64,000 nt of DNA, taken from Candidatus Poribacteria bacterium (GTDB taxonomy: Bacteria; Poribacteria; WGA-4E; WGA-3G). This document shows positions 57,349-64,000 of the stretch, piece after piece (position 1 is the stretch's first letter; each line of letters opens with the position of its first letter). Where the stretch lies: contig JAPOQK010000095.1 in assembly GCA_026710795.1 (NCBI GenBank), positions 1-64,000 of the forward strand, given 5' to 3'. The position numbers and the translations under genes were made by a program. A model generated the notes under the pieces. It was not told the origin of the DNA. It ran no database searches and worked only from the letters and a program-made list of their open reading frames with translations.

Positions 57349-59244
57349 CTAATCTACCTGTATAGACTGGATATCCCAAAGCAGCATAGTTCCATCATCA
57401 CTACCACTCGCGAGTGTCTTACCATCCGGACTAAACACAATACTATAAATACTACCCGTATGTCCACTTAACTTCAATAAGGGGTTGTATGTTTTCTTAT
57501 CCCATAGCTGCACAGTACCAAACCAGTCTCCACATGCAAATGTCTTTCCATCGGGACTAAACGCTATGACGGTTAAATTTTCCATATCATCTTCGATTTT
57601 GCGTAGATGTTGACCTGTTTTTACATCCCAAAAATGTGCTACATTAGGGAGTTCCTGTTTATCACTCGTACATGCGATTGTCTTTCCATCTCTACTAAAT
57701 GCTACATTATTACGCCAATAACTTTTTACCTTCAATGTATGTAGACGTTCACCAGTTATCACATCCCATAAACATAGGGTATTGTCTGTACTATAACTCG
57801 CGAGTGTGTTTCCATCCGGACTGAATGCCAGACTATGTACAATATCTGTATGTCCATTCAAAATCTGAATAAGTGTCCCTGTCCGTACTGCCCAAAGGAT
57901 TACATTGCCGTTATCACTTCCACCTGCAAGCATAAAACCATCAGGACTAAATTTAATACTATAGATGCTACTCGAATCTCCAGTGAATGTATTAACAACA
58001 GTTTCTGTTTGGATATCCCACATATTTACAGTGTTGTCTATACTACCACTGGCAATCAACTTTCCATCGGGACTAATAACGGCAGTAATGAACCGACGCA
58101 TGGGCGTTGTAGGAATCCTATGTTTTTCTCCTGTCTCGATATCCCATAAATGGACAGTACTGAAACCACTCACGCTCGTCAACATAGCACCGTCAGGACT
58201 GAATGCTACGCTTGACATGCTATCAGTATGTCCTGGTATTGTTAAAAAGGATGCCCCTTTTTGTGTATCCCAAAGACGAAGGGTACCATCATAACTGACG
58301 CTCGCTAAAGTCCTTTCCTGAGGACTGAACGCAATATGCATAATATAGTTCGTGTGTTCAGTGAGTGTCTTTAGAGATTCTCCCGTCTCAACATCCCATA
58401 AACGAATGGTTTTGTCCCAACTCGAACTCGCAATCATCTTCCCATCAGCACTGTAAGCGACACTATGAACACCCTCCGTATGTCCTGTAAATGTACGTAT
58501 CGGTTCCCATGTTTGTGTATCCCACAAACGCAAGGTCTTATCATGATTACCACTTATGAACCTCTTTCCATCTGTGCTGAACGCTACACTACAGACATGT
58601 GTCGTATGTCCTTTTAGTGTGCGAATCAGCACACCGGTTTGCACATCCCACAAACGAAGGGTTTTGTCATCACTACCACTCACCAATGTCTGTCCGTCCG
58701 GACTAAACGCCAAAGAAGAGAGCATATCCGTATGTCCTTTAAGTGTGTGGATCTGTGTTCCAGTTTGCACATCCCAAAGACGCACGGTATCGCCATTACT
58801 CCCACTTGCAATTGTTTTCCCATCTGGACTGAATTCAACACAACCAACAAGTTGCGTATGTCCTTTAAGTGTGTGAATCTGTTTTCCTGTCTGCACATCC
58901 CAAAGACCTACGGTATGGTCACCGTTGGCACTTGCTATTGTCAAGCCATCCGGACTAAACGATACACCAAATACCCCATCAGTATTCCCTGCAAATAGGT
59001 TAACTGTTCTACCGGTTTGCGCGTCGTAGATCCAAATTCCAATGCTACTCGCTGCTGCTAAAAGCGTCATATCGGGAGAGAATGTAATGTAATGTAATGT
59101 GCCTTTACCAAGACGAGTTTTCGCTCCATCAGGTAAATGCCATTTCGTAGTGTCCTGTGCAAAAGTATATATGACAATAGTATGCATGGTAAACATGATG
59201 ACGACAATAGAAAACAGGACTATTTTCAAAATAATGTTTCTCAT
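57349..59244 (-). CDS. Secreted WD40 repeat protein (second of a tandem pair)
   Basis: A 631-residue exported protein: signal sequence (about 1-30), the shared start TTKWHLPDGAKTRLGKG, then about fourteen WD40 units of some 42 residues each, with LASGSDDGTMLLWDIQ as a typical ending. This is enough for two seven-bladed propellers. It carries no enzyme domain. It lies 37 bases downstream of a 622-residue paralogue with the same N-terminal wording, so the pair arose by tandem duplication and is probably one operon. It likely provides protein-protein contacts in the periplasm or on the surface. Partner unknown. Confidence 0.9.
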   Translation of the reverse strand: MRNIILKIVLFSIVVIMFTMHTIVIYTFAQDTTKWHLPDGAKTRLGKGTLHYITFSPDMTLLAAASSIGIWIYDAQTGRTVNLFAGNTDGVFGVSFSPDGLTIASANGDHTVGLWDVQTGKQIHTLKGHTQLVGCVEFSPDGKTIASGSNGDTVRLWDVQTGTQIHTLKGHTDMLSSLAFSPDGQTLVSGSDDKTLRLWDVQTGVLIRTLKGHTTHVCSVAFSTDGKRFISGNHDKTLRLWDTQTWEPIRTFTGHTEGVHSVAYSADGKMIASSSWDKTIRLWDVETGESLKTLTEHTNYIMHIAFSPQERTLASVSYDGTLRLWDTQKGASFLTIPGHTDSMSSVAFSPDGAMLTSVSGFSTVHLWDIETGEKHRIPTTPMRRFITAVISPDGKLIASGSIDNTVNMWDIQTETVVNTFTGDSSSIYSIKFSPDGFMLAGGSDNGNVILWAVRTGTLIQILNGHTDIVHSLAFSPDGNTLASYSTDNTLCLWDVITGERLHTLKVKSYWRNNVAFSRDGKTIACTSDKQELPNVAHFWDVKTGQHLRKIEDDMENLTVIAFSPDGKTFACGDWFGTVQLWDKKTYNPLLKLSGHTGSIYSIVFSPDGKTLASGSDDGTMLLWDIQSIQVD

Positions 59245-59281
59245 TTTATTCTCCTCATAAGATTATATACATACCATGTGT

Positions 59282-61150
59282 TTATTCCATAGCATCAGGT
59301 TTAGGTTCCCAAAGCAGCACGCTGCCATCCATACTCCCGCTTGCCAGTGTCTTCCCATCCGGACTAAATGTAATACTATAGACACCGTTGGTATGACCTG
59401 TTAACGTCAAAATAGGAATGTATGTTTGTGCATCCCACAACAGGACGGCACCTTCATAACCACCACTTGCGAGAATTTTTCCATCTGGACTATACGCAAT
59501 TGTGCTTAACAGATTCATTTCATCACTGATTTTCTGGATATGTGTACCGGTTCGCACATCCCAAAAATGAACAGATGCGTCACCACTCACACTTGCGAGA
59601 GTCTTCCCATTCGGACTGAACACTACACTATCCACGCATTGCATATCTGCTTTCAACGTTTGAAGATGTTCACCGGTAATCGCATCCCACAAAATTGCAG
59701 TTTTGTCTCTACTTCCACTTGCGATCATTTTTCCATCTGGGCTGAACGCTACACTAACGACACCATCCGTATGTCCTTTCAATGTCTGAATATGTGTGCC
59801 TGTCTGTGCAGCCCATACCAACACAGAATTATCTCTACTTCCAGCTGCAAGCATAAAACCATCTGGACTGTACACAACACTATAGATACTATCCGCATTC
59901 CCAGTTAACGTTTTTAAATGGGTGGCTGTCTGAATATCCTGTAGACGAACGGTACCATCTAAACTTCCACTTGCGAGAGTCTTTCCATCCGGACTGAAAA
60001 CGACACTATCTAACGCACGTGTATGCTCTGTGAGAACTTGAAGGGGTGTCTTTGTCTTTAGATCCCATAAGCGGATTTTTTTGTACCCACTTATACCCGC
60101 CAACATAGTACTATTTGGACTAAACACCAAACTCGTCATACCATCTGTATGTCCTTCTATTGTCAGGAAGGATTTACCAGCTTGGGTATTCCACAGACGA
60201 ACGGTACCATCAGAACTACCACTCGCAAAATTAGAACCATCCGTATTAAATACTACGTTTCCAACAGAATCTGAATGCTCTGAGAGTGTTTGAGTTGACG
60301 CACCTGTCTGTAAATTCCAAAAACGAATGCTTTTGTCTCCACTTGTACTCACCAATGTAGAACCATCTGGACTGAAAACGACACTATTAACACGGCTTGT
60401 ATGTCCTGTGAGTGTTTGAATAGAAGTACCAGTCGGCACATCCCACAATCGTACAGTTTTATCAAAACTCGCACTTGCAACCGTCTTACCATCTGGACTA
60501 AACGTTATGTAATTAACAGCATTCGTGTGTCCTGTGAGTGTTTGAGTAGAATCCCCTGTCTTCACATCCCAAAAACGAATAGTATTGTCGGTACTACCAC
60601 TTAACACTTTCTGTCCGTTTGGACTAAACGCTACGCTCAGGACCCAGTTTGTATGTCCTATCAAAGTTTGAATATGTTCTCCTGTTTGTGCATCCCATAG
60701 ACATACGGTTTTGTCAAAACTCGCACTTGCAACCGTCTTACCATCTGGACTGAAAACTACACTATTGACACTATTTGTATGATTAGTTAATGTCCTGAGA
60801 AGATTCCCTGTCAAGGCATCCCACAGATGGACGGTTTTGTCTCCACTGCCACTTGCTATAGTCTTACCATCTGGACTGAACGCTACACTGCTGACACTAT
60901 ATGTATGTCCTATGAGTAAGTCAAGTGCTTCCCCTGTCTTTGCGTCATATAACCAAATTCCTATACCACTTGCAACTGCTAATCGCTTCCCATCAGGTGA
61001 GTACGATATATCGTAAATATTGCCTTTGCCGATGCGTGCTTTCGCACCATCAGGTAAATGCCATTTTGTAGTGTCCTGTGCAAAAGTATTCGGTACAATA
61101 GCAAATACTACAAACCAAAAAGTTACAATTGATAACAATACTTTTTTCAT
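59282..61150 (-). CDS. Secreted WD40 repeat protein (first of a tandem pair)
   Basis: A 622-residue exported protein with a signal sequence (about 1-24), the segment TTKWHLPDGAKARIGKGNIY and then about fourteen WD40 units (repeating VAFSPDGKTIASGSGDKTVH, DGTVRLWDIQ-like strands). The repeats are very similar to each other, for example VVFSPDGKTVASASFDKTV occurs more than once. This suggests recent expansion or ongoing gene conversion. Together with the paralogue 37 bases downstream it forms one transcription unit. Function: scaffold by inference. Confidence 0.9.
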   Translation of the reverse strand: MKKVLLSIVTFWFVVFAIVPNTFAQDTTKWHLPDGAKARIGKGNIYDISYSPDGKRLAVASGIGIWLYDAKTGEALDLLIGHTYSVSSVAFSPDGKTIASGSGDKTVHLWDALTGNLLRTLTNHTNSVNSVVFSPDGKTVASASFDKTVCLWDAQTGEHIQTLIGHTNWVLSVAFSPNGQKVLSGSTDNTIRFWDVKTGDSTQTLTGHTNAVNYITFSPDGKTVASASFDKTVRLWDVPTGTSIQTLTGHTSRVNSVVFSPDGSTLVSTSGDKSIRFWNLQTGASTQTLSEHSDSVGNVVFNTDGSNFASGSSDGTVRLWNTQAGKSFLTIEGHTDGMTSLVFSPNSTMLAGISGYKKIRLWDLKTKTPLQVLTEHTRALDSVVFSPDGKTLASGSLDGTVRLQDIQTATHLKTLTGNADSIYSVVYSPDGFMLAAGSRDNSVLVWAAQTGTHIQTLKGHTDGVVSVAFSPDGKMIASGSRDKTAILWDAITGEHLQTLKADMQCVDSVVFSPNGKTLASVSGDASVHFWDVRTGTHIQKISDEMNLLSTIAYSPDGKILASGGYEGAVLLWDAQTYIPILTLTGHTNGVYSITFSPDGKTLASGSMDGSVLLWEPKPDAME

Positions 61151-61370
61151 TGGAAAGCGTGTCCTTTAGTTATAAAAATTAATTTATATAGAATTGATGG
61201 CAAAGTTGAGTATTATCCCTGTGGTAGGCGAGTTGCCATTCTGTAGGGTGTGTAAAGTTTTTTGCCTAAAGACAGGAATGAAAACACCATGTACAAGACT
61301 TCGGACATTATATTTGACTGTGAATTGTTTATGTTTATCTTGTAATTTCATTGGATTTTTTTCCGTATAA

Positions 61371-61509
61371 AAAGGTTACCGTTTTGTGTCTAAGTTCTGC
61401 ATAACGGTAACTTTTGGTATTTTTCACTGGTTTTAGTTCCTGTCTGGGTTTATGGGTTGTTTTCACCGGTTTTTTTTTGAATGTAAAAAAAAGAAAAACG
61501 GTAACCTTT
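61371..61509. other. Structured element A (three covarying arms around a conserved core)
   Basis: Arm 1 AAAGGTTACCGTTTT (61371-61385) is the exact reverse complement of arm 3 AAAACGGTAACCTTT (61495-61509). It also pairs with arm 2 AACGGTAACTTTT (61403-61415) with one bulged G. A 29-base core lies at 61444-61472. Arm 1 can thus form either a local hairpin or a long stem around the core. Element B at 62039 has the same layout and core but different arm sequence. Confidence 0.7.
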
Positions 61510-61673
61510 GTTCTGCTTGATTCTTGTCTGTTTTTGAATTGTCTAATATAACTCAAGTTGCTACATAATGTAGCATAATCTGTATGAAGATTAATTAAAT
61601 ATATAGGTAATTCCTTGATCAAATTATGTTCGGTTTCTAAATCGCATAATTGGCACTATTTTCTTGTGTCTAA

Positions 61674-61785
61674 TACACCTTTCGCCCCTCTGGGGCTTGG
61701 GAGGGTGTTCACTAACGTTTGCTATATACCTTTCGCCTCTCCGAGGCTATCGTAAATGCCTCTCAGCAGAGGTGCGAAAGGTGTA
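61674..61785. repeat. TACACCTTTCGCC inverted repeat pair
   Basis: Arms at 61674-61692 and 61767-61785 match as inverted repeats at 18 of 19 positions (TACACCTTTCGC). A third, slightly changed copy starts near 61727. Not coding; a dispersed palindromic element by appearance. Confidence 0.65.
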
Positions 61786-61870
61786 TCTCGTGTATAATGC
61801 ATCAGTTTGCTTACATAATGCGCCTACCAAGTACCAATAAAAATTACCCAATTAACAAGTTAATCTTCAT

Positions 61871-61916
61871 TTAGATTGTGTCCGAATAGACACAAACTAA
61901 CAGTTTGTGCTACAAA
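61871..61916. repeat. TTGTAGC palindromic repeat, truncated copy
   Basis: The right half (CACAAACTAACAGTTTGTG followed by CTACAA) is intact and matches the class of the element at 24665-24724; the left half is shortened to TTAGATTGTGTC. Confidence 0.5.
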
Positions 61917-61968
61917 AAGAGCCATTATATATTAGAAATGGTATAATATTCTATTGGAGGTCGTTTCG

Positions 61969-62017
61969 ACAGAATGTAAGATATCGGAGGTCGCTTTGCT
62001 CGCTCCGACCTACGAAT
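61969..62017. repeat. 49-base direct repeat, copy 1
   Basis: Begins ACAGAATGTAAGAT and ends CTCCGACCTACGAAT. It matches the copy at 62207-62255 at all but two positions. Contains a small internal inverted repeat (AGGTCG/CGACCT). It sits 21 bases upstream of structured element B. Confidence 0.8.
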
Positions 62018-62038
62018 CGTAGTATTTCCTCCGTTTAA

Positions 62039-62176
62039 AAAAGATACAGTTTTGTGCCTTTTTTCACATGACTGTATCTTTACTGTGTTGTGGTCTGGTT
62101 GTTGTACCAGACTGGGTTTGTGGGTTGTTTTCACCGGTTTACTGTGTAAAAAAGAACTTGAAAAACTGTATCTTTT
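62039..62176. other. Structured element B (three covarying arms around a conserved core)
   Basis: Arm 1 AAAAGATACAGTTTT (62039-62053) is the exact reverse complement of arm 3 AAAACTGTATCTTTT (62162-62176). Its AAAGATACAGT part pairs perfectly with arm 2 ACTGTATCTTT (62071-62081). The 29-base core (62112-62140) differs from that of element A at one base, and the arm 1-to-core distance is identical (73 bases). A further GTCTGGT/ACCAGAC hairpin (62093-62112) is specific to B. It is flanked by the 49-base direct repeats. Confidence 0.7.
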
Positions 62177-62206
62177 GTTTTTGGCTATTTGTCGTAGGTA
62201 GGTTCT

Positions 62207-62255
62207 ACAGAATGTAAGATGTTGGAGGTCGCTTTGCTCGCTCCGACCTACGAAT
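62207..62255. repeat. 49-base direct repeat, copy 2
   Basis: Same 49-base unit as at 61969-62017 with two differences; it starts 30 bases after element B. Copies 1 and 2 are in the same orientation. Confidence 0.8.
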
Positions 62256-62480
62256 ACGGTTATGTTGGGTTTGTATGTGGTTTTGTTTTTCATAGTGATA
62301 GTATTATAGCACGTGTTGTTGAGGGTTGGAAGGGGTTGTGGATTTTGGAACAATATATATCCAATATGTTTTATGTAGTTTTCAGTTTTCAGTTTTTTCA
62401 GAATCAAGAAAATAAGCATGCAAGCATGAAAGCTGGTTTAGTTGATGCAAAAATTATACACACCCCATTTTATAACCACA

Positions 62481-62510
62481 TTGACAACACCATCTGAATG
62501 GTGTTATTAT
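62481..62510 (+). promoter_or_regulatory. Promoter with palindromic operator in its spacer
   Basis: TTGACA at 62481-62486, an 18-base spacer and TATTAT at 62505-62510. The perfect inverted repeat AACACCAT-ctga-ATGGTGTT (62486-62505) fills the space between the two boxes, overlapping both by one base. The start codon of the heparinase-like gene is 36 bases downstream. A repressor or MerR-like activator bound there would control the gene directly. Confidence 0.6.
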
Positions 62511-62546
62511 ATCACATACAATTATGGTAGTCAAGAGAGCAACAAT

Positions 62547-64000
62547 ATGTCAATAGATGAATATACGACAGTTCAAACCGAACATGTTGCGATGTTAGCA
62601 TCAGAACTTGCAAAACGAGAGATACCAATAATTGACCAATTTGAACCGATTGCAGATTTTGAAGAACTCATCACATTTGCAGAAGCAAACCCTACACCAA
62701 TTGAATATAGTGACCAACACCGTGCATGGCAACTTGAATCAGTTGCAGCACGCGTTATTGAGGTTCTCGGTATTGCAGCGCATGAAACACTTTACAAACC
62801 AGCATGGGAACCGTTGGCAAGAATACTATTAGATCATATTGAGTATTTATATACTTTTCCTGAAGCACCGACAGCACGTGAGCGGTTGGCAGCCGGGAGT
62901 GCGTTGGCATTAGCAGGTAGCGTCTGTTCTATATTACCACAATCTGAACTATGGAGATTGGCTGGATTTGGACGTATTGCTGCAAACCTCACTGAAGTTA
63001 ACCCAACTTCTACAGATACACATATAATTCAACCAATAGATTCAGCATTTTTGCTTGCAAGTAACCTCAACCTACCAATTCTGGGTTCAGCGAAAAAATG
63101 CTATAATTCAGTCCTTAATCGCAATTTTACGTTTCAGAATCAAATAGAGTTTCCGTTAAGTGATGAAGCCATCTTAGGTTATCTCAATCTGGAATATGAC
63201 GGATTAGAAGATGTCCACTCTGCTGTTATGAGGGGGGACAACACGGCTGCAATGTCTGCATATACAACCTATCGTAAAGAGTATATCAAGCACTTTGACG
63301 GTATCCTATATTTGGCAAAAACGGATACAATTAATGCAACAAAATTATATCTGGAATGTTTGCTAAAATTGTCCATTTATCCTACACCATCTATTTTAGC
63401 GACAGCAGAAATTGGTATTGCTGCGCTTCTCTTCCCTGAATTTCGTATTAGTGCACAACTCCTCATATTGGCATCTCGTCGATATAAGTGGATAGTTAAT
63501 GCCTACTTTTACCCGGATGGTTTTCATAAAGACATATTACTGCGTTCACAAGTAGAAGCAATTACCGATTTTTCAAGATTTCTAACAGTTTTTGATAGGG
63601 TTAAGGAGACTTGGCAATTTGAATGTGTTGATGAACTACAGAATTTATTAGAGAAGTTGGAAAAAGCATGCATCTATATTTGTCAACCAGATAAATCTTT
63701 TCCACCTTTCGGTGCTAATTTCCTTGACAATACAGATGTTATTGAACTGCGGAATATCACTAATTTTAATCGGGATAATAGTGAGTTGCAGACATTATCA
63801 TACGCACTACCTTATACTGGTTACTATGTAATGAGAGATAGTTGTGAACCTGACGCACAATATCTCTGTTTTGATAGTGGACCAATCGATAATAAAGGTT
63901 ATGATGATAAGTTGAGTTTCGTGTTATTCGCACATGGAAGACAACTAATTAAGCACAACTATGGAAGTAAAGAAGAGAATGAATCCAGTACAGCAAGCGA
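62547..64000 (+). CDS. Heparinase II/III-like protein, partial (3' end outside window)
   Basis: An open frame from the ATG at 62547 runs to the window edge (484 complete codons). The N-terminal part is an alpha-helical toroid typical of heparinase II/III and PL15/PL17-like lyases (RLAAGSALALAGSVCSILPQ, ASRRYKWIVNAYFY). The start of the beta-domain (about 400-475) has LPYTGYYVMRDSCEPDAQYL, then CFDSGPIDNKGYDDKLSFVL and FAHGRQLIKHNYG. In active lyases this place reads GxxGHGHxDxLSF; here the histidines are replaced, so catalysis is doubtful. There is no signal sequence at the N-terminus. An operator-bearing promoter lies directly upstream. Confidence 0.8.
   Translation, partial: MSIDEYTTVQTEHVAMLASELAKREIPIIDQFEPIADFEELITFAEANPTPIEYSDQHRAWQLESVAARVIEVLGIAAHETLYKPAWEPLARILLDHIEYLYTFPEAPTARERLAAGSALALAGSVCSILPQSELWRLAGFGRIAANLTEVNPTSTDTHIIQPIDSAFLLASNLNLPILGSAKKCYNSVLNRNFTFQNQIEFPLSDEAILGYLNLEYDGLEDVHSAVMRGDNTAAMSAYTTYRKEYIKHFDGILYLAKTDTINATKLYLECLLKLSIYPTPSILATAEIGIAALLFPEFRISAQLLILASRRYKWIVNAYFYPDGFHKDILLRSQVEAITDFSRFLTVFDRVKETWQFECVDELQNLLEKLEKACIYICQPDKSFPPFGANFLDNTDVIELRNITNFNRDNSELQTLSYALPYTGYYVMRDSCEPDAQYLCFDSGPIDNKGYDDKLSFVLFAHGRQLIKHNYGSKEENESSTAS

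Follow-up and report, generated by a model that had tools for sequence, protein, structure and literature searches.

Two Modules with a Shared Core and Three Matching Arms

The window, that is, the whole 64,000-nucleotide stretch of poribacterial DNA analyzed here, contains two related modules, A and B, which both precede a gene start on the minus strand. Their arms are named a, b and c in the order in which they are read on that strand. The features of the region are as follows.

61184–61351, minus: 55-aa ORF with the decayed start of gene X; only the first codons are X-like (MKLQDKHKQFTVKY...), and the ORF runs out across the left end of the probable transposon
61237–61245: left copy of an imperfect 9-bp target duplication (CATTCTGTA), 7/9 identical to 62466–62474
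61246–62465: probable non-autonomous inverted-repeat transposon, 1,220 bp, with both modules inside, delimited by its inverted ends and the homology limits of copies in the source genome
61246–61262, plus: left inverted end, GGGTGTGTAAAGTTTTT
61371–61385, minus: module A arm c (arm 1 of the earlier note)
61400–61415, minus: module A arm b (arm 2 of the earlier note)
61444–61472, minus: module A core
61495–61509, minus: module A arm a (arm 3 of the earlier note)
62027–62033, minus: module B ribosome-site-like CGGAGGA, followed by a hairpin repeat in place of the lost X start codon
62039–62053, minus: module B arm c
62065–62081, minus: module B arm b
62112–62140, minus: module B core
62162–62176, minus: module B arm a
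62285–62308, minus: promoter-like box, TATAATAC then CACTATGAAAAAC
62449–62465, minus: right inverted end (GGGTGTGTATAATTTTT on the minus strand), an imperfect inverse of the left end
62466–62474: right copy of the imperfect target duplication (CATTTTATA), 7/9 against the left copy

Arms and inverted ends were taken from the inverted-repeat listing, and cores from core matches in the window and the genome. Module A is 139 bp and module B 138 bp long, with three matching arms each. The modules are offset by 668 bases, the distance from arm 1 to the core is 73 bases in both, and the two cores (61444–61472 and 62112–62140) are identical at 28 of 29 bases; these values reproduce to the base the twin elements described in the earlier note. 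The two alternative pairings reported there are likewise present. Specifically, arms 1 and 3 form a perfect 15-bp inverted repeat in both copies (61371–61385/61495–61509 and 62039–62053/62162–62176), and arms 1 and 2 form hairpins of 16 and 17 nt (modules A and B) that are 88% complementary.

With up to three mismatches allowed, the core was found twice in the window against 0.00 expected, and the source genome (4.70 Mb) holds 8 exact and 77 near copies against 0 for a reversed control pattern. The modules are therefore not chance occurrences. Twenty-four of the 77 copies start less than 500 bases from a contig start. Modules were read at 30 of the 77 near-core loci, where arm types A (GGTTACCG) and B (GATACAG) are frequent alongside further types; in all 8 distinct pairs among these loci the B module comes second, 261–668 bases after a non-B module.

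On the minus strand each unit runs arm a, core, arm b, arm c, ribosome site, ATG and forms the 5′ leader of an orphan gene that we call X. Both modules lead into a ribosome-site-like stretch, and module A continues into ATGAAATTAC..., the start of X. In the window X has decayed to a few codons; it is intact in related genomes. The earlier view that the arms are non-coding holds insofar as they belong to a leader, but intact relatives have a conserved protein-coding gene immediately after them. The box at 62285–62308, which recurs upstream of arm a in leaders of genomes G008, G014 and G010, may act as a promoter, judging from its sequence.

Other repeats occur in the same region. A hairpin repeat, GGAGGTCGCTTTGCTCGCTCCGACC, flanks module B in two copies that are 92% alike (61958–62017 and 62196–62255); it occupies the expected site of the module B X start and is also found near other copies in the source genome. 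Between modules A and B lies an inverted repeat (ATACACCTTTCGCC..., 61673–61786), with a related stretch (73%) in L092. The minus-strand interval 57349–61150 encodes two adjacent paralogous repeat proteins of 631 and 622 aa, presumably of the WD40 type.

A Probable Non-autonomous Transposon Carries Both Modules

The two modules had been described as separate units. Their anatomy is exact, but they are not free-standing: both lie within one pair of inverted ends at 61246–62465, which probably delimits a non-autonomous transposon. The ends (GGGTGTGTAAAG..., 61246–61262 and 62449–62465) are 88% complementary, giving the interval the terminal inverted repeats of a MITE-like transposon, and with up to two mismatches the end sequence has 64 matches in the genome against 4 for the reversed pattern. 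The left homology limit of 11 loci in the source genome falls at 61244–61249. Four of 13 distinct copies (L001/L012, L002, L025 and L027) extend rightward to 62465–62471. In the other nine, homology ends at 62389–62415, near the upstream boundary of the X leader and before the right inverted end, so the copies need not all be the same transposon.

The target duplication is perfect (9/9) in sister copy L025 (882 bp) and 7/9 in the window; L027 and four 175-bp relatives in G009 have none. These 175-bp elements have the same inverted ends and stand beside X genes (L096, 9845–10019; L097, 8778–8952 and 10014–10188; L098, 8151–8325), on both sides of X in L097; the inverted ends therefore also occur without leaders. 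The window copy contains no transposase-sized ORF. PF00872, which we take to be the IS256-type transposase and which was the sole transposase family searched, gave 0 matches in the source genome. The carrier would have moved by transposition.

X Is an Unnamed Poribacterial Gene under Purifying Selection

A 56-aa piece of X gave 64 matches in the source genome and found longer open genes in relatives. With a profile built from eight intact X proteins, 41 of the 84 genomes of the phylum, belonging to 2 of its 21 genera, gave matches to X or relatives at E ≤ 1e-5, a count that includes fragments and a distant paralogue. All 19 X loci from the named collection are poribacterial. The family is unnamed, and our searches met members only in Poribacteria. 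In all 15 pairs with more than 60% identity dN/dS was 0.22–0.39, and X is thus under purifying selection.

The closest family found was DUF2280 (PF10045), which 10 of 14 X proteins matched at E ≤ 0.01 (best 3.7e-6); scores of 15.0–22.5 bits lie below the curated Pfam cut-off of 24 in all five proteins with scores listed. The first 36 residues of X resemble the DUF2280 N terminus; in protein P0002 the best DUF2280 stretch is residues 57–125, not the N terminus. Two short N-terminal helices are predicted at residues 5–16 and 21–31, in a model with mean pLDDT 79.9 and pTM 0.51. Other identities were rejected. Seven NCBIfam families were each matched by one of 14 members, PADLOC gave two such single-member matches to defense systems, matches to PHROGs and Pfam were weak, no PDB sequence matched, and the best Foldseek E value was 4.3. 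As to a phage origin, viral contigs yielded 105 pattern matches with no relative among them, and one X protein had no match in phage records. Among literature titles on DUF2280/terminase and on Poribacteria inverted-repeat transposons, none was about this element.

The distant paralogue, in the second genus (L172–L181), has TGTTCA... repeats of its own upstream, and in the loci inspected lies near a gene that is presumably SecA-like. In G079, a relative of the window gene at 62546+ (MSIDEYTTVQTEH...) adjoins two tandem X genes (L089, 6493–8643).

The Arms of a Leader Change in Concert

Most intact X genes are preceded by arm a, a conserved core (AAACCC(T/A)TA...ACTGGG), one or more arms b, arm c, a ribosome site and ATG; this architecture does not show at L161, L164 and L165, nor in one leader each of L162 and L163. 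From 84 leaders, 68 were kept after the L172–L181 paralogue loci and leaders shorter than 200 nt were dropped, and 60 after near-identical ones were dropped. Perfect 8-mer partners of the c window lie in the b region of the same leader in 31 of the 60 cases, compared with 5.1% for the b regions of other leaders, and in the a region of the same leader in 29 of 60, compared with 9.0%. Neither figure was reached in 5,000 permutations. Concerted change of the arms, noted earlier for the twin modules, is therefore general over the leaders. About half of the leaders miss this strict 8-mer mark; displaced start codons or different layouts in some of them are part of the reason.

Close relatives illustrate the change. 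In G015, L072 carries CTTACC and L145 CGTACC in all four b/c half-sites, with arm a being CGTACC in both. In G008, L157 and L159 are 85% identical over 446 bases, yet differ at all three arms. The core, by contrast, is stable: AAACCC and the later TA are conserved at 78–98% per position in the 46 of 60 leaders that match a preset pattern with up to two mismatches, figures that are overstated since they rest on these matches. Thus, different X lineages use different half-site sequences, and whole arm sets differ together from copy to copy.

Matching arms could also arise without selection, by template switching or gene conversion between nearby repeats. The b/c palindromes are near-perfect and closely spaced, and the window copies lack an intact X, as such homogenization would allow, but arm a, about 100 nt off, also matches in 29/60 leaders and the architecture recurs in two genera. 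We consider this explanation very improbable.

The Arms Resemble DNA Half-Sites More than a Folded RNA

The arms might instead belong to a structured leader RNA, in which arm a or b pairs with c to form alternative hairpins by the ribosome site, acting as an attenuator or translational operator of X. Several features are as such an RNA would have them: arm c lies directly before the ribosome site, the promoter-like box is about 250 nt upstream, the arms covary over 60 leaders, and the minus-strand RNA of the two modules folds better than shuffles (z of −2.9 and −5.8). However, the plus strand folds about as well (z of −3.2 and −4.0), because inverted repeats must fold similarly on both strands.

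A selected RNA helix should favor G-U pairs. With equal mismatch penalties, the stems comprised 1,302 Watson–Crick, 14 G-U, 28 A-C and 44 other pairs, chance a/c stems included. In b/c stems only, there were 9 G-U against 10 A-C pairs in self stems and 27 against 30 in non-self controls. G-U is thus not preferred over A-C, and pairing is not kept through G-U as well as Watson–Crick changes. Rfam gave 0 matches at E ≤ 1 in 61000–62700.

Spacing points the same way. The distances between direct half-sites are 10–12, 20–23, 31–33 or 51–52 in 37 of 39 cases; five of the 39 come from words other than the arms (L035, L163, L050, L160 and L169), and both misfits are among these five. The direct-repeat periodicity, R(10.5) = 0.77, was reached by 0 of 20,000 jittered sets, and with one entry per word R was 0.76 (35 distances). 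The half-sites are therefore repeated at helical-turn spacing as in an operator array, although duplication of 21-bp units could mimic this phasing. At least three copies of one 7-mer occur in 23/60 leaders (shuffle mean 0.05), and 6/60 have four or more sites. Such four-site arrays sit poorly with alternative hairpins, as do the many inverted repeats with only 2 nt between their halves. Moreover, arm a is not always coupled to the others: in L085, L088 and L166 its class is not that of b/c, and L064, L069, L070 and L072 also have a differing arm a.

The lack of G-U preference, the spacing, the uncoupled arm a and the folding of both strands thus lead us to prefer half-sites of a putative DNA-binding protein over a folded RNA, which we regard as improbable. 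The earlier note had argued that base pairing, and not a protein, is selected. This is not supported, since repeated sites of one protein would also change together, and the pair counts and the ∼10.5-bp spacing oppose it. Likewise, of its alternatives, a structured RNA or mobile DNA, the second is supported, in that the modules sit between the inverted ends at 61246–62465 in what looks like mobile DNA, and the first is not. More generally, concerted change at three sites alone is no proof of RNA pairing, and counts of G-U against A-C together with spacing periodicity can separate the RNA and DNA readings.

X and Its Leader Seem to Travel Together

Two genes that we take from their sequences to be cas3-like and cas4-like are separated by 19–33 bases in five inspected genomes (cas3-like genes 77–85% identical in three, about 51% in two). 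In G004, 896 bases lie between them, consisting of leader, X and a short tail and starting close to arm a. Loci from 20 of the 25 matched genomes were compared, and one of them has X at this spot. In G016, X comes after the stop codon of the cas3-like gene, with the cas4-like gene elsewhere. Two of 14 genomes, with some of the contigs truncated, have X upstream of an rfaE-like gene as well. From these insertion sites, leader and ORF seem to travel as a unit. At L101, L182 and L091, in two genomes, X with its leader directly follows a cas3-like gene.

Such insertions would also be expected if the arms were transposition signals, with X as a transposase or helper, arms and core as the end acted on, and N-terminal-only copies as non-autonomous derivatives. 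This explanation would account for the repeated units of promoter-like box, leader and about 20–30 X codons in G008 and G014, and for the many copies in the source genome and G009. We nevertheless judge it unlikely: X matched no transposase family or fold, and 12 of 20 X regions lack a GGGTGTGTAAAG-type end (≤1 mismatch) within 2.5 kb.

A Putative Autoregulator of X

The reading that we favor, with a rough probability of 0.57, is that the arms are DNA half-sites of an autoregulator, likeliest X itself, that represses X, and that the leaders in the window were captured by a small inverted-repeat transposon. The half-sites, direct and inverted and in phase with the helix, would be occupied by the DNA-binding autoregulator to switch X off. 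The candidate is X, through its DUF2280-like first 36 residues with two short predicted helices. Half-sites specific to each lineage would explain why the sites within one leader change as a set. The two leaders of the window, A and B, whose half-sites differ, would have been captured by the transposon and persist as passengers or relics, with X cut to a few codons.

Genes other than X mostly differ across 20 X regions (four sets share neighbors), which makes X the natural candidate binder. We compared typed half-sites with X proteins for the 26 leaders with intact X. Half-site similarity correlated with X similarity both in the C-terminal part (Mantel rho 0.45, 0/2000 permutations) and in residues 1–36 (rho 0.30, 1/2000). 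The partial Mantel correlation of the N-terminal part given the C-terminal part was 0.07, a value that does not favor specificity residing in the N-terminal helices. Residue 21 of X is R in 11/11 TACC-type, L in 9/9 TGTTACA-type and P in 4/4 TGTTACG leaders, the other types making up 2/26; this match between residue and half-site class (24/24 in the three main classes) is confounded by phylogeny. Also counted against our favored reading is the only near-full-length X match of the source genome (C97), whose half-sites, TGTACC, differ from those of the window modules.

More tentatively, X with its leader could be a self-contained, transferable "address" cassette: a DNA-binding gene with a private operator array, all of whose half-sites are quickly re-coded together, preventing cross-regulation between sisters. 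On this account, leaders 85–90% alike in one genome would already differ at all b/c sites, as they do. The insertion between the cas3-like and cas4-like genes hints that the cassette can bring host operons under its control. If the autoregulator reading is true, the 26 intact genes, with ten types of half-site and proteins to match, would be a natural series for studying protein–DNA specificity, in which concerted change of specificity at several sites could be measured.

Comparison with Known Systems

The carrier resembles MITE-like non-autonomous transposons in its short inverted ends, its many copies, the lack of a transposase-sized internal ORF and the perfect 9-bp duplication in L025. It differs in carrying two leaders of an orphan gene, and the duplication is imperfect or missing in other copies. 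Riboswitches, attenuators and retron RNA share the leader position, and alternative pairings can be drawn, but X leaders have neither a G-U preference nor an Rfam match, and their spacing is DNA-like. With DUF2280, X shares matches in most of its proteins, at scores below the cut-off wherever listed. Autoregulated helix–turn–helix genes with repeated operators in their leaders include lambda cosB/Nu1, plasmid partition genes and toxin–antitoxin regulators. X leaders are like these in having half-site arrays downstream of a promoter-like box and upstream of the start codon, and X in its predicted short N-terminal helices; by contrast, X is an orphan whose binding is putative, and its half-sites vary between lineages while the core stays constant.
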